This document shows, piece after piece, positions 9,701 through 51,200 of a stretch of DNA of 64,000 nucleotides. Source of the stretch: Patiria pectinifera (lineage: Eukaryota > Echinodermata > Asteroidea > Valvatida > Asterinidae). Location of the stretch: positions 21,443,430 to 21,507,429 of the forward strand of contig CM057129.1 in assembly GCA_029964075.1 (NCBI GenBank), given 5' to 3'. A program made the translations under genes and the position numbers. How positions within the stretch are numbered: position 1 is the first letter of the stretch; each line of letters opens with the position of its first letter. The notes beneath the pieces were generated by a model. It saw only the letters and a program-made list of their open reading frames with translations, made no database searches and was not told the origin of the DNA.

Positions 9701-12440
9701 CAGTGATCAGGGATGAGGGATGGGATTTTGTATTTATAATATTTGCTTGTTTGCATAGTAAATCAGTTGATCACACCAACTTGGACTTTGCTCACAGATA
9801 CAGAATAAACATGTCCTACATTTCCGTTTTGCCACAGACAAAAACCCACACCCTAATGGGCAAGCAAACATGTGTCTGACTCTGCGCACATTTTTTGGAT
9901 GCAAATATTTGACGAGCAAATATTTTGATCATTTGTTGGAATAGTAAATATTGTAAGTTAATCCAAAACATGCACAGTTTACATTGTGTTAGACATTTTT
10001 AAGGGTACGTGTATGTTATGGATGATGAGGCTCTGATAAATTGTGAAATTTCTTGGTAACTCAACACATCATTTCGTCTCCTTTAATTAATATTTCACAT
10101 TATATTTAACTGTGACAGGGCTCAAATAAGAAGTTCTCGATTCTGGAAATGTGTAATTTGATTCTAAAAATATACAGCAAGTTAAACTTGCGCAACCCCC
10201 CTGGCATGCTGGCAGCGAATGTCCTCATTTGACCCCAAGATGACCTTTGACCTCAAATATGATGATGTAAGTGATTACATTATGGAGGGCAAGGCTTATG
10301 TAGTTTTACACTTATCACATGACAAAACTATAGGCCTATTGTGTTTTGGTTCAAACCATAGAGCTACATGTATATTACTACAGCGTTACACTGAACCTCA
10401 TTCCCTGCGGCGCTGGAGATACTCTGAAGCCATCCTGAGTGCAGGCATTATGAATTCATATTTTATGTGCATGTTTGTAGAACTTAATGAAATTAAATGA
10501 AATGAGTTTTGAATAATGTACTCAAAATGCAACGCAAAGTACAACATACGCGAACAACGTAGGCGCGTTTTCTACAAGTATGACGGCAAAAATCATATGT
10601 CACAGCGCATACCCGCAAGCGTTTGCGTCGTTTGCGCAGAGCAAAATGTAACACTCATTTACTAGGACAAGTGCGTTTCGGCTTTGGGAGTATCGGCTTT
10701 GATAACTCACCGGTAGGCCTGTAGAATACAAACAGAATATAGAATACATACAAATAGCCATACTAAATCCGTAATAAATTTCGAGTTTACCATAGGTTTG
10801 CGCACAACAAGGATGGGCCAGCAGACTTCACTTTGTACAGCGAGTTACCAAGAGCTCTAGTAATGTGCATGGTTAAACCTAGACCCGTGAACATGGCTTG
10901 TAAAATTTTGTTAACTCCAACGACACGTTCACAGATCTAGGTTAAACCCAAATTTAACACGAACATCCCCCCTCTCCCGGCTCTAATTGGCACATTTCTT
11001 TATGAGCACTAGACGTGTCAGTGTAACAATAGTCCTCCTTGTTTATATGAAATTGAATACTACATTTAAGTGCCAGATATTTAATTTTCTTTTTCTGATT
11101 CGTGGCTCTGGAGCATTTTTTTTTTAGAGGAAAGTAAAGTCTGAAACTGCATTAGGTCTGATTCCCATCTCGTGAATACAAAGTCACAATGACAAATTGA
11201 CAAATGTAATGTAAGCGTGGAACCAGACAAAAGTCTGATTATTTACACTATGTTCCGAAAGACTCACTCGGTCACTGCACATGTTCAGTGTCAACTGTCA
11301 TGCTGGTAAAATTCCTAAAAAAATACGCAAAAACAATCGGGGACTCGGTTCATGGTCAAATAATGAAATATACATTGCCTTTTTTTATTGTTTAACTTTT
11401 TTACTTATATTTAATATTTTATTTTTTTTGGCATTTTGCTGTCGTCATCGTTGTTACATTACATGTGGTTTTGATATTTTGGAGTAATTGCAGAATACCC
11501 CGGCACTCGGAAATACACCCCTAAAATCTCTGGCTACGCGGTTGGAATCACTGGAAACAAACAATTCAAGTCCATTGCCAGCTACGCAGATACGGAGTGG
11601 GGGTCCATTATTTGAGAACGAAGCAACACAAAAGGAATGGGAGTTACTGAAAAAATTCTTGTCGAAACCAACTACCCTGTTGCCGGCTACGCGGATACAG
11701 AGTGGGAGACCGGAGTGCAGTGGAGCATGACGCATAGTAGTACATACAATTAGCGCTGAGAAGGTTTATTAATATGCTTGAGAACGAAGCAACACAAAAG
11801 GAATGGGAGTTGCTGCAAAAATTCTAAGTCCAAACTAGACCCGTGAACGTGGCTTGTAAACTACAACGCCACGTTCACGGGTCTAAGTCCAAACCAACTA
11901 CCCTGTTGGCGGCTACACGGATACGGAGTGGGAGTGCAGTGGAACATGATGCATAGTACACACAATTAGCGCTGAGAAGGTTTATTGAGGGCAATCAACC
12001 GTGACTCCGTAGCCGGCTACGAGGTGGATAGATTAATTGAGTGGCGGGGTATTCTGCAATTGTGCCGATATTTTTTTTTTTTTTTTTAATAAAAGGGATC
12101 AAAATAATATCGGTACAGTATTAAATTTACACAGAGATATTTTCCTCGTTACAACACATGAAATTCTTGTTGCCGCAACTGCACAGTCGCCCTCTGAACC
12201 GTATACATTATGTACATCCTTGCTCTATGATGTAATGTACAGAACATGTACTTACCTGGGAGTTTCCTCAATTCGCTTGCCTTGCATCGTGTGCACATCG
12301 GAGCCACATATCGTTGCCAGTCGAATTTTGGCAAGAACTTGACCTGCTGAAATCTCTGGAATTGCAACGTTGTCTATGATATACTGAGGGCATTTCTGGG
12401 CCCCGAGGAAAACAGTCCGTCTGCACATGTCGTGTGCCAT
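612..12440 (-). CDS. Zinc-binding alcohol dehydrogenase-like gene (partial, 4 exons)
   Basis: Coding exons, in transcription order, are 12440-12256, 6325-6163, 5549-5340 and 744-612; the gene continues past the left edge. The joined frame gives about 230 residues with no internal stop. It has the MDR dehydrogenase fold: catalytic-zinc Cys in ICGSDVHT (residue 45) and His in LGHEG (66), a structural-zinc cluster CGECERC plus C111 (spacing C-x2-C-x2-C-x7-C), and a Rossmann GAGLLG at 187-192. The zinc cluster, the following KCAKLFKYGH and the APINCALAT block match what I know of the bacterial 'phosphonate catabolism associated alcohol dehydrogenase' group rather than classical ADH or sorbitol dehydrogenase. 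It is probably a cytosolic NAD(P)-dependent oxidoreductase; the substrate is unknown. All exon junctions have GT/AG sites and compatible phases. The nucleotide-binding domain is only partly present in the window. Confidence 0.85.
3250..3592 (-). mobile_element. tRNA-derived SINE with (ATT)n tail and 8-bp TSD
   Basis: Read on the minus strand, the element begins GGGTGGCATGGGTGGCTTGT after the duplication, an A-box-like region, followed about 50 nt later by a B box GGTTCGAATCC. A GC-rich central part contains a TTTCTC/CTCCGGTTTTCCTCCC block, reminiscent of conserved SINE core domains in invertebrates. The 3' end is an ATT-repeat tail. The flanking direct repeat AAGTCTTA occurs at 3242-3249 and 3593-3600. 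It lies in the same orientation as the host ADH-like gene, inside an intron. Assignment to a named SINE family is not possible by eye. Confidence 0.82.
3757..3899. repeat. CAAA/CCAA microsatellite
   Basis: A purine/pyrimidine-skewed simple repeat built of CAAA and CCAA units, with embedded CCCCAACACC blocks that occur twice. It creates long open but meaningless frames on both strands. Confidence 0.9.
4043..4260. mobile_element. Short foldback (hairpin) element
   Basis: Two imperfect inverted arms (4043-4124 and 4175-4260) flank a 50-bp loop. Matching landmarks are TCATGG(TG/CT)CCCGACTA at the outside, GCGATGTG in the middle and AACAGCC/GGCTGTT at the inner ends. I found no clear target duplication. 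It is likely a non-autonomous palindromic transposon. Confidence 0.65.
5340..5549 (-). CDS. ADH-like exon 3 (substrate/cofactor domain hinge)
   Basis: Exactly 210 nt (70 codons), phase 0 at both ends, acceptor GCATAG and donor CAG|GTGAGT. It encodes YGHSSIHVRTGLSGCYASHI through KLPDNVTDKMAAPINCALAT to KSVLVQ. The SGCYASHI and APINCALAT blocks are typical of the cofactor-domain entry of zinc-type MDR proteins. Confidence 0.88.
5550..6162. other. ADH-like intron between exons 2 and 3
   Basis: A short intron of 613 bp, about two thirds of which is the foldback element at 5621-6035. The rest is unremarkable. Confidence 0.75.
5621..6035. mobile_element. Long-arm foldback element inside an intron
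   Basis: Two imperfect inverted arms of nearly 200 bp (about 5621-5845 and 5855-6035) meet near 5850. Paired landmarks include GGGGCAGATAGG / CCTATCTGCC, GTGCCTTTGATGAT / ATCAACAAAGGCAC, CAGTCAGAGTA / TACTCTGACTG, AGGGCCATC / GATGGCCCT and TTGTCCTTT / AAAGGACAA. No coding capacity is visible. The left arm also contains AATTGTAGAATACCCC, close to the TIR of the element at 11486-12061. Confidence 0.75.
6163..6325 (-). CDS. ADH-like exon 2 (GHE motif and structural zinc cluster)
   Basis: This 163-nt exon lies between a TTTCCAG acceptor and an AAG|GTAGAG donor. It completes a split Ser codon and reads SILGHEGVAEIV, then LSPGDRITFSVMDSCGECER and CTQGLTQKCAKLFK. It contains the GHE catalytic motif and the four structural-zinc cysteines. 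It ends in phase 0. Confidence 0.88.
7405..7770. repeat. Degenerate GACTC/GAGTC-rich repeat
   Basis: Clusters of GACTC, GAGTC and CAAGTC words (7408-7525 and 7725-7765) in both orientations flank a piece with paired GGATTTG / GGATTGAGG words. It looks like an old satellite or composite repeat. Confidence 0.45.
10871..10948. mobile_element. 60-bp palindromic micro-element with 9-bp TSD (copy 2)
   Basis: Core 10880-10939, starting TAGACCCGTGAACATGGC and ending with the diverged complement GACACGTTCACAGATCTA. The perfect 9-bp direct repeat GGTTAAACC lies at 10871-10879 and 10940-10948. The 24-nt middle starts TTGTAAAA, as in copy 1 (TTGTAAAC). There is no room for a coding region. Confidence 0.8.
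11486..12061. mobile_element. Non-autonomous DNA element with 17-bp TIRs and internal tandem duplication
   Basis: Perfect terminal inverted repeats AATTGCAGAATACCCCG occur at 11486-11502 and, complemented, at 12045-12061; a further CACTC matches after one mismatch. Inside, a block starting GAGAACGAAGCAACACAAAA is tandemly repeated about 168 bp apart (11611 and 11779). The motif GGCTACGCGGATACGGAGTG recurs in variant form near 11579, 11684 and 11908. No clear target duplication was found. Open frames across it are not transposase-like. Confidence 0.8.
11827..11894. mobile_element. 50-bp palindromic micro-element with 9-bp TSD (copy 1)
   Basis: Core 11836-11885: perfect 18-nt arms TAGACCCGTGAACGTGGC and their complement around a 14-nt middle TTGTAAACTACAAC that is itself partly self-complementary. 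The perfect 9-bp duplication AGTCCAAAC lies at 11827-11835 and 11886-11894. It is nested in the second tandem unit of the larger element; the first unit (around 11661-11680) reads straight through without it. Confidence 0.88.
12256..12440 (-). CDS. ADH-like exon 1 (start codon, GroES-like N-terminus)
   Basis: This exon encodes 61 residues plus two bases and carries the first catalytic zinc ligand in ICGSDVHT. The donor is AG|GTAAGTA. I chose the ATG at 12440-12438 because family similarity begins just after it (FLGAQKCPQYIIDNVAIPE). The frame stays open upstream to another ATG at 12518, so an N-terminal extension cannot be excluded. The start faces the divergent Fox gene. Confidence 0.8.
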
Positions 12441-15021
12441 CCCTTCAGCCAAGTAAAGCGCTGACAGTTTGGGGGAAATGGGGAGAAATCTAACACGTCC
12501 GCACGTCAAAATGTGCATACGTCAACACAGAACTGCAATCAATATCGCGCGCTGCTTCTATTTGTAATGCAGTAGATGACAGACAACCTTGACTTCTCGC
12601 TGGTGACTCTACCATGCACAGTACGTAGTTTGAACGTACATCCGAGGGAACCAGTGAATCACAGCCAACAACTCGATGGATTCTAACAAGTGTCAAGCGA
12701 GTGACCTTTCGTGGCTCTGATTGGTTGAAAGTGAGGGTACTAATTAATTGATTAGCCATTTCACTGGACTCTCAGTGATTTTCAGAATGTTGCCAAATTC
12801 CTCCATTGTACCGACGGCCCCACTAACGAAAATTTGAAGTTTAAAGTTGCCAGGTCAGAAAACGCTAGAATGCAGAGGGCGCTATTTACGACACGTACCC
12901 TCTCTGTAACTGTCAAATAATTATTAGGCCTACTACGTACAGCCGACATCTCATGCAGCCGACATCTCATACGTTTCCAGGACAAAATATATTTTGATAA
13001 TAACGTGCTTCCTTTTCTTTTGCATGCATTTTTTTCCTGTTCATCACCTGTAATTCTTATGTTGGGCTATGAACCCATTGGGTGGGGAAAAGGAGTTCAA
13101 AGAGGAATATAAAAAAAAAAAATATTTGTATCTTTTTTCTAACCAAATATTGTAAAGGAAACATGAATCTTGTGGGTAGCATTTCGCCATAACCCAGGCC
13201 ACACAAACGTATAGCCAATGACCGATCAAAGATGTAGGATGCCGCCAGCATCCAAATTAGGTAGGACAGGGCGCACGAGGTATTTAAAAGACTGTAATTT
13301 AAAAACAAACAATTTTCAGTCACCTCACTCTCGCTGGAAGCCTCTAAACGTTCCGTCGACAGTATACATTAATTGTTAGTGCTTATTTAAAAAGTGGTAC
13401 TTCTAATTACTAATGACATCACGTCATGTAACAGTCCATCATCCCATTACTACAAGGAGTGTGATCGTTCGCGCTCACAGTAGGATTAACTCTCAGCAGC
13501 TTGTCGTATCGATCTGATGCTTTTTAAATATTTTCATTACGTGCAAAACAGTTATGGGCCGGGAGATCAGCGGGCAAAAAAAAAAGCCAACGGCAACCAA
13601 GGGTGAGTGTTTCTCATTGTTTCGCCCTGGTGCAAAAACATTTAGTTAATTGATCCCGATTGGTGATTAATTACTGAGGGTGCATGGTCGAGTCCTATAG
13701 GCGTAAGCTAAGCGCAATGTACTTTTAATGCCATTCTTGCATCTTCATTTATAGGATAACCAATTTGCGTCTCTCGAGCCGATAGCGGGTCGGATGAGCA
13801 CTCCCTTACCCTTAGTCGAACTCGATTGAACACAAATGTATTACACCAGTAAAGGATCCAGGATTTTTCACAGGGAGATGTCTAGAGTGTTTGAGTTCAA
13901 TATTTTTTCGGGGTAGATGGGAGGGGGGGTGTAGGAGGCGTTTGCGGTCAACGCAAAAAGGCTAAAGGTCTGAAGCAATGCATAAAAAAATGTCTGGATT
14001 GTCCTTCAGTCAAGTTAAAATAACCCTAAATCCTGTAAAAGAGTTCATCAAAAGTGAACATGACTGTAGCCTGGAAGCCTGAAAAACCTAGATGGAGAAG
14101 ACGACTAAAACAGAGTTGATTTCAAGAGGTCGAAAACCCTGGACTTAGGACACTTCAGGGAAAATTCCATGAAACAGGGAATATAAACCGATGGGATTCA
14201 TCCCGTCACAGTGCTGAATGAGATGAAAGTACCACTGCGCCAAACCTGACTCACCAAACCTTTCCGTTCAAGAAAATACTTTTCCTTTTGAGGACTAGTG
14301 ATTTCACATACATTGAAACCAAGTATAAACTTTGACAGACTTCTCGATCTGACAAACGTTTTTGAGTGCAGGATGGCGTAATAGCTCATCCCTTAGCTAG
14401 CAGTGCATATCGATGGAAATCACTTTACCTACGTACAATTTGAGATGGAATAAGTAAATCCGAATGAACGGTCCAATAAAGAAGCAGTCCACCCAAAGTC
14501 AATCTTGAATTTCCAGAAAAATGGGAGATTAGTGAATTTCTAAAGGCTTCCTCGGTGATGAAAAGCACGGGCCCGACGTTGATAGAGTGCCGGCCGGCCA
14601 GCGGTCCCAATCAATAGATGAAGTGTTCTTTTCTCCAACAATGAAGCGGAGGGCAGGGCGATCATGATGAGAAGGCTGGGCACAGCACTTTGGTTGTCTT
14701 TGCGACAATAGCAGACCAAACAAACGTCCGTTCACCTCAATGCCTAGGGCCGGCCTTCCTAGGGAGGAGGAGAAAGCTTAGAGGGTCGGGGAGTAATTTA
14801 TCATCCTGCTCATCAATATTCATGAGAAGATGGTCTCTCTTATCACCCACTTGACAGCGGCTTGATAGACACGACAGACGAGCTGATCAGTTTGTTTTAA
14901 AAACTGAGAAAAATCGAAGTCATCGAATCAGTCTCGGATAATCGCCACTGACTGATGGGTCCTGTCGTCAACTCGGACGTGCGAATTCCATCAACCTCTC
15001 TGACAAACGAATTGGAAAAAA
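12441..15021. other. Divergent intergenic region between the ADH-like and Fox starts
   Basis: About 2.6 kb that should contain both promoters. It is moderately GC-rich next to each start, with stretches such as CTTATCA and TCAATATTCATGAG near 14810-14850 upstream of the Fox ATG. I could not identify a convincing TATA box or any gene. Confidence 0.55.
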
Positions 15022-15984
15022 ATGACGGCCGAATTTACTAGCGATGTTCCTGATGGCGATGATACCACACGGAAAAGTACCTCAAGTGGGGGACTGAAGA
15101 CGGAATACGGTATCTTGTTGCCGGGAGAATCAAGTTCTCCGTCTCCTGAACCTCCTAGTGACGGGGATGGTGGCCGGGAAGATTTACCGTACCGTGACAG
15201 GTACGGTAGTACCGGTAGCAGCGGCATACTCTACCCACAAAAACGGCGATTTGCCGACGTGAAACCTCCTTACTCCTACATCGCCCTAATAACCATGTCG
15301 ATACAGAACTCCAAAGACGGGATGGTAACGCTCAACGATGTCTACTCATTCATCATGGACAAGTTTCCTTACTTCCGAGAGAACCAACAGCGTTGGCAGA
15401 ACTCCATCCGCCACAACCTGTCGCTGAATGACTGTTTCATCAAGATACCGCGTGCGCCTGGCCGACCGGGCAAAGGCAACTACTGGGCGATGCATCCGGA
15501 CTGCGGCGACATGTTCAGCAACGGGAGCTTTCTGCGGCGGGCTAAACGCTTCAAAGTGAGTAAACGGAGGAACGAACCGGCACAGATACAACACGTGAAT
15601 TCCTACGGACACTTTAGTCTGTATGCGCCGGGCTACCCAGCCACCGCGTATCACAGGGACCCGACGGTAAACTCTTACCCATCTCACTACCAGTCGAGTC
15701 TCCAACATCAGTCAAGACAATACTCATCTCCTTATGAATCTTTCACTGACTCTTCCTGGACCACACCGACTTCTCCCAGCCAGGCCTACTGCGGTGCTGC
15801 TTCCTACTACCCCTCCACGGCGATCGCACCGAGCACTGGCTACCTGTCCGCCGGGGGAATGTCGGCCGTGCAGACATCGCATCACGCAGCGGCATCTCTG
15901 TCATCTTATCCCGCTCTACAGCAAACATACGGGTCCAGTTCATGTTGTCAGATGGGACGAAGAATTCCACAACATTCTTTTTAA
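15022..15984 (+). CDS. FoxAB: Forkhead-box transcription factor, FoxAB-like (single exon, complete)
   Basis: This encodes 320 residues, a nuclear DNA-binding transcription factor. The forkhead domain spans about residues 80-176: [33 protein letters not shown], the recognition helix [30 protein letters not shown] and a wing [18 protein letters not shown]. The wing resembles FoxB (GDMF.NGSFLRR.KRFKV), but the domain is internal rather than N-terminal and helix 1 is not FoxB-like, which together fit the FoxAB group of invertebrate deuterostomes. The N-terminus (1-75) is Ser/Pro/acid-rich and the C-terminus (190-320) Tyr/Ser/Gln-rich, probably regulatory. The start is firm: an in-frame TGA at 15001-15003 precedes the ATG with no other Met between. 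Forkhead identity is near certain; the FoxAB subclass is a judgement from memory of the families. Confidence 0.9.
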
Positions 15985-21275: not shown

Positions 21276-22084
21276 GAAATTCTTGACACTACACAAACAC
21301 TGGTATTGGGGAGGTGCTCGTCAGCAACCCTTTTTTGTGGGGAGAACAAGTGAGACCCAAAAGAACAGGAAACGATACAACAATAAAGGGATGAATGGTA
21401 GTTATAGAGTAACTTGATTGCAGGGATGGGATAATGGGAGGTTTAACTAACTGGAGTAGACAAATAATAACAGGTGGTTTGCCCACCGCTGAAATGAGCT
21501 CAGGTTGTATACGAGACAAATTGAAGCATTGTCAGCACACACGTAATTGCGTTTGCGAAGGAAGATAGATGGGTAGATAAAGGAAAGGGATTTCTGAACA
21601 GCATAAACATTCATTTAGAAGACAAAAACAGAGGTATGCCTATGTCCGTCGTGGTCTTGGGATGAAATTCGTGAACGTGGCTTTATGACCCCAGTAGGTA
21701 ATTAAGTTAAAGTTTATAACAACAATACAAATAAAAATACTCCTATAAATTAATACAAAAATACAATACAAGCATGCAAGACAATAATTGCAGGGAGTAA
21801 GTGACTGGACGTGATGATATAATTTCTGGTTGGAATGTGGCTCTTGATTCACACAAAAAAGCAAAGCACGGGCGAATAAAAGACCTGAAGGCGACTTCGA
21901 TAAAATTCCAGCAAGGTTATCAGCGGACGCTGGCAACTTGTAGTAAATAAGTAGAACTTATGTATATAGCCGATCATCATCACTCCCTTTTCAGGGCGAA
22001 CCTAAATTGATCGTGAAGGTAAGAAGCATTTAAACTGCATGTTTGGTAACCAAGACAGAAACTGTTGCGTTTATTTACAGCAAG

Positions 22085-47698: not shown

Positions 47699-48243
47699 CT
47701 ATCCAAACGAGGGTACTTGAAGGAAGATGCTGAGGGTGGCAATAATTGTGGTAAGTCCAAACACCCACATAAACAACCTGTCGATGATGTAAGCTATCCT
47801 GATCCACTCGAACCGCATCTCCTTGTCCATGTCCTCTTCCTCGTACCTCTCTACGATCTTGCCCAGGTTGCCGGCGATCAGATCCAGTGTCTGCTGGAGC
47901 CTGTTCCGCCGTCCTACACCCAGGACGTCTCTCTTGGTCGTAGCCGCCATCATGTTGTTCATCTCCAACTGGTTGCAGTCCATGTTCACGTTCTTGTACA
48001 TTGTGTTGTTGACTTCGCGCATGGCCGGCGCGTTCTCGAAGCTGATGCGCGGCACAGTCTGCGCGCCGTGGAGGCTTCTGCAGCTCCGGAGACACAGCAC
48101 CCGGGACAGGTAGTCCATGGCTAGCTTGCGGAACCAGGCGGGAGGTCGGCTGGCGTAGGCCCCTCGATGGTGGATGTGTAGCACGATGACCGTCAAGAGT
48201 GTGGACACAGATACTAGGATCATGGTGGTCAGGTAGTACTGGG
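47699..48243 (-). CDS. nAChR exon 6 (M3, cytoplasmic loop, M4, stop)
   Basis: 545 nt from acceptor CCCTCTAG to TAG. It encodes M3 ([20 protein letters not shown]), HIHHRG, a short cytoplasmic loop with an amphipathic stretch before M4, and the M4 segment with [19 protein letters not shown]. It ends QVPSFG. Confidence 0.95.
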
Positions 48244-51200
48244 CTAGAGGGATTAACCAAGGGGAAGCAAGCTTGTTAATGCAAAGATACAAGGAATAAG
48301 ATCAGTTTGACACCTTAAAGAAGACTGCTCAAAGTAACTTGCTTCCTACATTTTTTCGACTCTTTAATTTGTAACCTGTAGATTAATGGATTCGACTTAT
48401 TATACCGAATCATTTTATATCAATTTGTGAGTTTGTAACAATTTAAGGACTAAGAAATAAGCAGCGTTGTTCAAGTTGGTTGACATGGATATGCACACAT
48501 AGTGTGGTAATGTCATTTAATTGATGTCGATTCTTTGCCTCATTGGGTGCCCCCGGACGATTATTGGTTAATTAGGTTGAATAACAATGCATTTGTACCT
48601 ATTAAGGGGATGACGTCGGACGTCGGTGGCATTGTCTCTGCTACTAGCAACAGGAACACTGTCAGTGACAGCAGGATTGTGATGCAGAGTGTCACTTTCT
48701 CTCCAGCATCGGCTGGCAGGTAGAAGCTCAACATGGTCAGTGCGGACACCAACATGCAGGGTACCAGAAGGTTGAAGACGTAGAACAAGGAGCGCCGCTG
48801 CACAATGATGGTGAAATGTAGCAGGGCGTAGGGGTACTCACAGCAGTCGTACTTTGCCAGCTCCCGCTCCACCGGCATGCTCTTGAGCACCCACTCGCCG
48901 TTGTGGATGAAGCTTTCGATGTCCCCGGAATTTCTACGCGCCACCAAGTCTAAGTGGTTGATGGTGAAGGCCCAGGAGCCAAGGTCCAGCCTGCAGTGCT
49001 GTTCATCGAAGGGGAAGTACTTGATGTTGATCCTACAGGAGGACTTGAAGATGGCGGGCGCGTACCAAGACACCAGCCCGTCGTGGGAGATCTCTGCATT
49101 GGTCTTCATGATGCCTTCAAACTTGTCATCAGCTCTATGAGGAATTGGGAGAGCATTTCGTCAAGGGTGTTCAGATTGTAGTTGATTTGGAAGCTATTGA
49201 AGTGAAATGGGTAGGGAAAGAATCTCAAGAAGATGAAAGTCCAAATACTCTGACATATGAAAGATATACGTAAAAATGGAGCAACATGCTCAAGGGAAAC
49301 ATCACAAGACACTCAGGGCAGACACCACAAGTTGAAATGGGTTCTTACTGAGAGCTTTATCTGAACTTAGATGTCAAGAACGCGACTTTCCGAAGAATAA
49401 GGTTGATAGTGGCTATAGTTCAAGTCCTAGCCTGGACTTCAAAAGGAGAGATAGGATTCTGTTTTGGAGAGATTCGGTTTTGGAGAGGAATGGGCACTTT
49501 TTCTCGCGGGTTCGCGTTTGTTACTAGTCATACAGACACACATTAAGCATTTTATTACCAGAATAGAGCCTTTCATTCGAAGTTTACATATAGATTCAAG
49601 GTTATTTCTTGTCCTATGACTCAGGGATGAAGGCCTACCCGAATCCGGAGACGAATTTGAATTATTTTGAATAACCTCTTTTTGCAGCGAATTATACACG
49701 GCGCTTATACAAAGCTGGTATTTTAACAGGTCGTGGCTCAAGTAAAGTCGATCCGCATGAAAGTATGCACGGGGAAAATACCTGCAAACGCAGCCCAACA
49801 TTCCGCGAGAAAAGGAAGACTTTGCAATGCAGACCCGATTCCGGAACCGTCACATAATCCCCACCGGGTATTTCACACATCTGTCACTAACATCTCGCAT
49901 TCGACATCGCGATGGATCCGTAATATACCCGAGCCAAGCGCAGATTACGAAGCTGCGCCTCAAGTGCAGCTGCCGCGTTAATCCAGTCCACTGGAGTGGG
50001 CGTGTAATAACGAGCGTACGGATCGGATTTCCGCCCGGCCGGTATTTTTTTTCAGAGCACTTGTGATTTCGATGAGTTTGGGGACTTACCTGGAACCCGA
50101 TTCGTTTTTGTTCAGCTAAGTTTTTAGACCGAATAATTAGAACAGTCTCGCGGAGTAGGTGCACGCGATGGGTGATTTTCTCTGGCGGGCCTTTAACAAA
50201 AATCGCACAAAACAGTTTAACTAAAACTGCTACTTAACACATGACTGCGTGGAGATTAAAATCTACAGAAATATGTGGAGAATAACCTGACATAAATACA
50301 GTTAACACGAAATAAAAGTACCAGGACTTCTTGAACTCCACAAACGAATAAAACACAACAGTCCATTCACTGACTTGCCTCATTTGATAGGCGCCATATA
50401 GATCATGACACCTGTTAATTCTTACACACAGCCCCCTAGACTATCCAGTTTTGGCCATAGTGACCTGAGTGAGCACTTAACGTAGACCTATACATGTAGT
50501 TCAGCAACGTGGGCCCGATAGCCGTGTTAGTCTATGGTTTAATACAACTTGAGCGCTGCTTCGTTTTTATTCCAACATGGCGTTAATCACAGTTTCTAAT
50601 CTGCATAGTCCGTTGAACACAAACCAAGCAAATCATAGTGTGTGTATAAGGATGCCCCTGACAGACGGAGGTCCGCCCGATGTATAGGCCCATTCACATC
50701 AGCAGGCCTGACTAATGCTGTTAGTTCAATCCTTGGATATGAAGCCATACTTGACAGTCTTTTATTGGTTTTTGAAAAGCTTTATCAAAACGAGATTTCA
50801 ATTCTAAAAACATTTATGTCCACACTGGTGACACTACCAGTCTAAAAAAATATCACATTGTAACTGGTGTGGAGGCATCATCCAAAAACGTTGAAGCTTG
50901 TGGTGGATGTGCCTAACAAAACTATAAAAAAAAAACCAAAACAAGGCAAACAACACTGATTATAAAGTTTAGTAGAAATCACAATTACTTATCAGTTAAA
51001 AATAAAGCGGACAATGAACAACACGTATCATAGAACAGTTACTAACGGCTATAAAACAGTTTAACAAACATAGCTAATTAGGTATTCTGGCAGTTAAGCA
51101 AGAATAATTTTAGTTTATATAAGCGTATATTCAGGTGCAATTAGTTAAAGACGAATCAAGTTTTTTGGTCAGGAGAAATATAAAAATATATGTAAGTCTA

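Follow-up and report, generated by a model that had tools for sequence, protein, structure and literature searches.

Tiny palindromic insertions in Patiria pectinifera as minimal members of a terminal-inverted-repeat DNA transposon family with 9-bp duplications

Introduction

Made1, the 80-bp palindromic MITE of the human Hsmar1 element, is described as having 37-bp ends (PMC1784062). The tiny elements analyzed here resemble it in being non-autonomous, near-perfect palindromes with little beyond two inverted ends (PMC1784062). They differ from the 80-bp Made1 in spanning only 43-52 bp and in having ends that are themselves palindromes, so that one palindrome is left. Mariner elements duplicate TA, whereas the duplication of the present family is 9 bp long.

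A 9-bp duplication is a feature shared with MULEs and their MITEs (9-11 bp in plant MULEs), and multiple terminal repeats are reported to occur in MULEs as well (PMC3310237). The ends given as typical of MULEs are, however, 100-500 bp long (PMC3310237), as against ~64 bp in long members of our family, and no MULE transposase with the family ends was found (surroundings read at 1 of 30 PF10551 places). Copies made almost wholly of terminal repeats are described for the Foldback-like element Galileo as 2-TIR and solo-TIR forms; the 2-TIR forms average 1.7-2.2 kb, in contrast to the one hairpin of ~48 bp with both outer tips found here (PMC3573991). The joining of two palindromes that have broken centrally, with minimal homology, has a described parallel in human PATRR translocations (PMC4255720). 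Those events take place between chromosomes and involve AT-rich palindromes, unlike the joining within one transposon proposed below. For bacterial REP palindromes, we are aware of neither 9-bp duplications at the termini nor long relatives that share their ends. REP sequences are nonetheless alike in being palindromic repeats (20-40 bp) tied to special transposases (PMC3733652, PMC2817692). In the literature surveyed, no eukaryotic element shorter than 80 bp is said to move, which is weak evidence of absence.

Results

Two tiny insertions in the window (the whole 64,000-nucleotide stretch of P. pectinifera DNA analyzed) are genuine transposon insertions with exact 9-bp target-site duplications. 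The first is a 50-bp element at positions 11836-11885 of the plus strand, identified by its ends, its loop and its genome-wide copies. It carries the tips TAGACCCGTG and CACGGGTCTA around one palindrome and is flanked by AGTCCAAAC at 11827-11835 and 11886-11894 (plus strand). The second is a more diverged 60-bp element at 10880-10939, identified by its arm matches and its alignment to the 50-mer and flanked by GGTTAAACC at 10871-10879 and 10940-10948 (all plus strand). When the window was scanned for inverted ends that match at 11 or more of 14 positions, lie 30-700 bp apart and are bounded by a perfect 9-bp duplication, these two structures alone were returned. Among 20 first-order Markov controls of window length, none contained a structure with a 9-bp duplication, and two structures with an 8-bp duplication were found. 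The preliminary description had proposed both the perfect duplications and independent integration of the two elements; the first is borne out by these results, and the second is supported by the presence of 9-bp duplications at independent sites.

The arms of the 50-mer are complementary at 18 of 18 positions, and its DNA has a predicted folding energy of -25.6 kcal/mol (z -10.2). The two 18-nt arms of the 60-mer differ from the family arm at 1 and 3 positions, and alignment of the two cores in the same orientation requires one 10-bp gap and leaves 5 mismatches. The original characterization of both elements as almost entirely inverted repeat thus holds for the 50-mer but not for the 60-mer, which has no unusually stable fold (z -0.5). 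A proposed third member did not survive. The match to the arm, at 21670-21683 (plus strand), is an isolated one of 14 nt, one base from where it had been placed; the outer portion of the arm is mismatched at 4 positions. Because the only right-arm matches in the window at up to 5 mismatches are those of the 50-mer and the 60-mer, this partnerless match is unsupported as an element; it was not counted and is probably chance or a stub.

The 50-mer lies in a host repeat (11486-12061, no strand assigned) that has 23-bp inverted ends (96%) and internal tandem units. A second copy of this repeat, at the edge of locus L098, lacks the 50-mer and contains AGTCCAAAC once, and so represents the empty site. 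Exons of a ligand-gated channel gene were also detected, as was a forkhead gene; both indicate animal DNA. The motif TAGGCCT is in excess (17 observed, 2.75 expected).

The 18-nt arm was searched against the 613.5-Mb source genome with the reversed arm as control. The search, suggested in the preliminary description, revealed a family with other core lengths: 870 + 893 arm copies were found, compared with 31 + 42 for the control, and the family ends are TAGACCCGTGAAC. Among the first 100 listed places, 34 end pairs with zero-mismatch arms were present. Their core lengths were two-humped: 12 were 43-86 bp and 22 were 304 bp or longer, with none of 87-303 bp. At a tolerance of 3 mismatches the 50-mer has 27 copies, of which 14 are exact, at about 25 sites, and 37 47-mers were found; reversed-pattern controls for 50-, 47- and 48-mers gave no matches. 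Flanks were alike in 2 of 351 pairs among the 27 50-mers (41 nt, ungapped comparison).

The 9-bp duplication was perfect in 28 of the 44 tiny copies read, comprising 15 of 27 50-mers (absent from 12) and 13 of the 17 47-mers read out of the 37 (absent from 4). In another set of 17 tiny members the duplication matched at 9/9 positions in 14 and at 7/9 in two more; L012, in the same set, is intact save for one base missing from an arm. The three tallies overlap, through the window 50-mer, L010, L028, L058 and L062. Some duplications appear to be 8 bp instead of 9. With terminal inverted repeats, target-site duplications and a high copy number at unrelated sites, the elements have the characteristics of MITEs or non-autonomous terminal-inverted-repeat elements. 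The best explanation is that the two window elements represent the smallest forms of a terminal-inverted-repeat DNA transposon family that is present in high copy number and makes 9-bp, sometimes apparently 8-bp, duplications. Contig scans gave no matches in the genome contig collection and six in viral contigs. The six were judged unrelated, as no second arm was seen by eye within the following 110 bases; five of them are in the same region.

The common longer member of the family is ~700-800 bp, with inverted ends of ~64 bp. Each of its tips carries TAGACCCGTG; next comes a palindrome similar to AACGTGGC-loop-GCCACGTT. In each of the nine long members examined in detail, both ends contain a palindrome, and the loops differ: eight have loop alpha (TTGTAAACTAC) at one end and loop beta (GTTGTATACAAC) at the other, and the ninth has loops gamma and beta. 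Tiny members keep both outer tips around a single palindrome. The loop of the window 50-mer has alpha on its left side and beta on its right.

Tiny loops were tested for coverage by the end loops of the nine long members, with 2000 shuffles per loop. In 10 of the 15 tested, the loop is the left part of one end and the right part of another; shuffled loops were covered in 0 of 2000 cases each, except for 11 and 29 cases with two 7-nt loops. Three of the ten have one common loop. Simple joining leaves five loops unexplained (the window 60-mer, L021, L061, L042a and L019), with 2 nt unaccounted for in L061. A gamma-like half pairs with beta on the other side in the tiny forms L063 and L061, as it does in the long members L008 and L071. 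Nine distinct loops occur among 11 independent tiny pairs (C1-C2 list), which argues that tiny forms arose repeatedly.

Junctions within the loop account for 55 forms, namely 27 50-mers (3-bp overlap), 23 47-mers (5-bp overlap) and five 47-mers that are one base off. Forms of the kind that a crossover in the stem would give comprise three beta-solo and at least nine alpha-solo forms. Direct-repeat recombination between the 8-bp stems, which predicts mostly alpha- and beta-solo forms, was demoted to a less probable mechanism on these numbers. The alpha-solo figure is a minimum. These forms were counted with fewer mismatches allowed than the hybrids, and perfect palindromes may be lost or mis-assembled; either could make stem junctions seem rarer than they are. 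The five one-base-off 47-mers carry GTTGTTTACAA, which differs at a single base from the hybrid and likewise from the alpha-solo form; they may reflect either another junction or a common mutation, the latter favoring copying.

The preliminary description had named, as an outcome that would speak against it, copies that are just the ends of a larger element, imprecisely excised. This proved half true: the tiny forms do look like the ends of a ~700-800-bp element, but the ends are mostly joined at the palindrome loops and the duplications are intact in most copies read. At one repeated host site, L007 and L013 contain a 749-bp member, and L010, L012 and L014 contain, in the same orientation, one of the tiny recombinants expected from its two ends. 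The junctions of the long form are damaged, and the left one is shifted by 5 bp relative to the tiny forms, so two separate insertions at this site are possible.

A Mutator-type label for the family is unproven, and we have not filed the family as Mutator. The 9-bp duplication is within the 9-11 bp of that superfamily, although some duplications seem to be 8 bp long. The ends fall short of the 100-500 bp typical in plants. Shorter inverted ends occur in other MULEs, and their length here is therefore not decisive. MULE transposase matches over the cut-off were found at 30 PF10551 places; at the best of these (on C4, the one whose surroundings were read) the 5 kb around it contain no family end at up to 3 mismatches. 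No autonomous partner with family ends was present in the loci read. L037, a 6467-bp member with a perfect GGTAACGGT duplication and an interior consisting largely of tandem repeats, was rejected as a candidate: it has no open reading frame of 150 aa or more, and no Pfam match was obtained for the 8 frames scanned of the 38 of at least 60 aa listed in the locus. L039, which adjoins one arm copy, is an unrelated Ty3-type retroelement.

Discussion

We consider it somewhat probable (roughly 0.55) that long elements of this family are shortened through breakage and rejoining at the tips of their terminal palindromes, with a solo palindrome as the product. Initial insertion would be by cut-and-paste, with transposase supplied by an autonomous relative. 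The two terminal palindromes would form extruded hairpins, or come together in the course of gap repair following excision, and break at their tips. Joining of the tips via about 1-5 bp of common sequence would delete the interior, and the outcome would be a 43-52-bp palindrome inside the original duplication, like the solo LTR of a former retrotransposon. Against this reading, the presence of the 50-mer at about 25 sites, 14 copies being exact, is also expected from one copied master; the five loops unexplained by simple joining and the copies lacking a perfect duplication weigh against it as well.

It is possible, though we think it the less probable course, that a small number of hybrid palindromes, each with a single origin, were then copied around as ultra-short MITEs by the family transposase. 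A single hairpin of 47-50 bp would in that case be a fully mobile eukaryotic transposon that is recognized and cut, generates its own 9-bp duplication on insertion and has reached dozens of copies, a proposition we hold only tentatively. The abundance of the 50-mer and of one 47-mer hybrid (23 copies) fits such mobility, as do the small differences among the 50-mers, the near absence of similar flanks, the perfect duplications in 15 of 27 50-mers and 13 of 17 47-mers, and the scarcity of stem-junction forms; common mutations may also exist in the five GTTGTTTACAA 47-mers and in two GCCGCG 47-mers on C22. Many one-off loops show, however, that tiny forms also arise without amplification. Changes common to 50-mers at unrelated sites (position 37 in L088, L091, L092/L095 and L094; position 32 in L086 and L093; position 8 in L093 and L096/L097) fall, by eye, on CpG positions, where recurrence is likely. 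The lower limit described for Mos1-type MITEs is 80-120 bp, with bending below 90 bp costly (PMC2642840). Shrinkage in place becomes slightly less likely, and mobility of the tiny forms slightly likelier, in view of a possible common mutation in the GTTGTTTACAA copies and of an alpha-solo count that is only a minimum.

We regard it as improbable that the tiny forms are ordinary internal-deletion derivatives of abortive gap repair after excision, the palindromes being merely a convenient annealing sequence. Short common sequences at the junctions and intact duplications fit this explanation, but gap-repair deletions usually end anywhere, whereas here the terminal palindromes mark where the tiny forms end, and the 34 pairs listed lack cores of 87-303 bp. 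Perfect palindromes can be mis-assembled, but chance palindromes or assembly artifacts are very improbable given the Markov and reversed-pattern controls and the observed empty site.

If 47-50-bp forms do move, they would be much shorter than the smallest mobile MITE in the literature surveyed (80 bp) and would bring the minimum transposon size below the 80-120 bp described in vitro for Mos1-type MITEs (PMC2642840), with a bearing on the synapsis of two very close ends. If shrinkage in place is correct, terminal palindromes would have the role in a DNA transposon that LTRs have in a retrotransposon. The interior would be deleted and a footprint of ~50 bp left, making old insertions nearly invisible to repeat finders, and the family would document, in nature and across a whole genome, how short palindromes break and are joined at their tips.

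Two palindromic insertions in the window

The preliminary description of palindromic cores with 9-bp duplications at 10871-10948 and 11827-11894 agreed with the sequence on re-reading. A scan of the window for perfect 9-bp duplications around inverted ends 30-700 bp apart returned only the 60-bp core at 10880-10939 (60-mer) and the 50-bp core at 11836-11885 (50-mer). Twenty window-length Markov controls gave no inverted-end pair with a 9-bp duplication and two with 8 bp. As DNA, the 50-mer folded into a hairpin whose 23 pairs are interrupted by a single bulge and closed by a loop of 3 nt (z = -10.2); the 60-mer had no special foldability in the same test.

The 50-mer lies in a host repeat (window 11486-12061) that contains tandem units and is bounded by inverted ends of 23 bp, AATTGCAGAATACCCC; a second copy is found on contig C4 (locus L098:1-403). 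This copy, cut short by the edge of L098, reads ...AAATTCTAAGTCCAAACCAACTACCCTG... uninterrupted, an empty site with AGTCCAAAC present once, so the insertion amounts to 59 bp, made up of the 50-mer and a single 9-mer. Elsewhere in the window, Pfam matches marked a forkhead gene in a single reading frame (15004-15984, plus strand) and exons encoding a ligand-gated ion channel (47699-49160, minus strand).

A genome-wide family with long and tiny members

The source genome (G000; 613.5 Mb, 1020 contigs) was searched with the 18-nt arm, one position being free and up to 2 mismatches allowed. There were 870 forward and 893 reverse matches, and 31 and 42 with the reversed pattern. The first 100 matches listed, all without mismatch and on contig C1 and part of C2, included 34 pairs shorter than 2 kb and left 32 ends unpaired, among them both ends of a 6467-bp insert (L037:776-7242), which has a perfect 9-bp duplication and contains ~230-bp and GACTCGAGTC-type tandem repeats. 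Among the 34 listed pairs, tiny cores measured 43 (two), 47 (five), 48, 50, 52, 64, and 86 bp, representing 11 independent sites because two of the 47s (L010 and L014) are paralogous; longer cores measured 304 (two), 562-846 (19), and 1722 bp. Since the sample favors intact arms, its tiny-to-long ratio is not a genome-wide estimate.

Read on both strands, 21 duplications (L050 was left out as the reverse of L051) tend toward GG-Y-T-N-A-R-CC. The outer G/C and inner T/A recurred more weakly at the 50-mer sites, where flanks without duplication were included. The nine-base duplications would fit MULEs. The transposase domain PF10551 exceeded its cut-off at 30 places in the source genome; no family ends lay in the 5 kb read around a single one of these, and no autonomous member was found in the loci read.

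Nine long members were read closely. Their tip, TAGACCCGTG (one base off in some), is followed by a palindrome near AACGTGGC-loop-GCCACG, and the end sequence reaches ~64 bp. In eight of the nine, one end carries the alpha loop (TTGTAAACTAC or a one-base variant) and the other the beta loop (GTTGTATACAAC, in some with one base changed); the ninth, L008, combines gamma (TATATATACATA) with beta. Perfect 9-bp duplications flank nine single long elements, L050 and L051 being one duplicated insertion; this is not a rate, because only long pairs matching at 7/9 or more were tabulated. Long pairs in L007/L013, L018, L023, and L031/L032 lack a matching 9-mer. Seven further members read at both ends matched at 9/9 (two), 8/9 (one), 7/9 (one), and below 6 (three). 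In L038 (1689-5136) and L084, members stand side by side with one 9-bp duplication in common (GGCCTAGGC and GGTTCAGCG, respectively), as if a newer copy had gone precisely into an older duplication. One arm copy adjoins a Ty3-type retroelement (L039:1534-7274), upstream of which lies a PNMA-like protein.

Structure and copy number of the tiny members

Tiny members have both tips and a single palindrome. From 22 rows shorter than 130 bp, four single ends of long members and a degraded 36-bp L023 row were dropped. The duplications of the remaining 17 were 9/9 in 14 and 7/9 in two; the last, L012, is intact save for one base missing from an arm. Fifteen loops were compared with the end loops of long members, leaving out L056 and L012 (which has the L010 loop). 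Matching inward from both sides covered 10 of the 15 fully; shuffled loops reached full coverage in 0/2000 cases, except for two 7-nt loops (11/2000 and 29/2000). The window 50-mer loop is alpha on the left and beta on the right with a 3-bp overlap. Coverage of the 60-mer loop left 13 nt unmatched, and its inner part resembles, by eye, the longer alpha loop of L066.

A genome search tolerating up to 3 mismatches found the 50-mer 27 times, 14 of them as exact copies, against none for the reversed control. All were read, 26 fetched plus that of the window, and two pairs with common flanks reduce them to 25 sites. Perfect 9-bp duplications flank 15 of the 27, or 14 of the 25 sites; swapped left-right flanks matched at 8 or more in 2 of 702 comparisons, as expected because L096/L097 is a duplicated locus. 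By eye, L077, L087, and L090 match over 8 bp, 5-6 extra bases separate duplication from element in L092/L095 and L093, and flanks are irregular in L072, L078, L081, L085, L089, and L094. An extra partial left end precedes the tiny element in L081, L102, and L104, and another follows it in L104. A degraded 35-bp member is present, in similar surroundings, in L024 and in L027 (minus strand, end at 1518); by eye, its flanking 9-mers match at 8/9.

The 47-mer occurred at 37 places (up to 3 mismatches; reversed control, 0), sorted as 23 GTTGTATACAA hybrids, whose loop joins two ends, five GTTGTTTACAA, and nine GTAGTTTACAA forms with alpha only, the last count being a lower bound because these start 2 mismatches from the query. 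The GTTGTTTACAA forms are one base from either of the others. Perfect duplications flank 13 of the 17 read, among which two pairs are duplicates. A 48-mer with beta only turned up three times, with L063, a gamma/beta form, as an additional match. L100 (contig C6) and L108 (small contig C349) have identical short flanks, perhaps reflecting an unplaced haplotig or a duplication.

Origin of the tiny forms

Three observations speak for the tiny forms being the product of joining two palindrome tips: core lengths among the 34 listed pairs are empty between 86 and 304 bp, tiny loops combine two different ends, and loop junctions (up to 55) exceed stem junctions (at least 12) despite the longer stem homology. 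Both terminal palindromes would extrude, break at their tips, and be end-joined with 1-5 bp of overlap. PMC4255720 documents such breakage and end joining in human palindrome-mediated translocations.

Transposition of the 50-bp element itself would also yield identical 50-mers at ~25 sites, and a single variant may have been copied to give the five GTTGTTTACAA 47-mers. In the literature covered, the shortest eukaryotic elements with demonstrated movement measure 80-120 bp (PMC2642840), and human Made1 is 80 bp (PMC1784062). We consider mobility of the tiny forms possible, but less likely than tip joining.

Shrinkage in place gains support from one repeated host sequence, which holds a 749-bp member in L007 and L013 and a 47-mer in L010, L012, and L014, at practically equal position and in equal orientation. 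The flanks are ~81-93% identical within 300-700 bases and less so further left. Because the 749-bp form has a damaged right tip and a left junction shifted by 5 bp, the long and tiny forms may instead have inserted independently at this site. The 47-mer is one recombinant expected from the ends of the 749-bp member.
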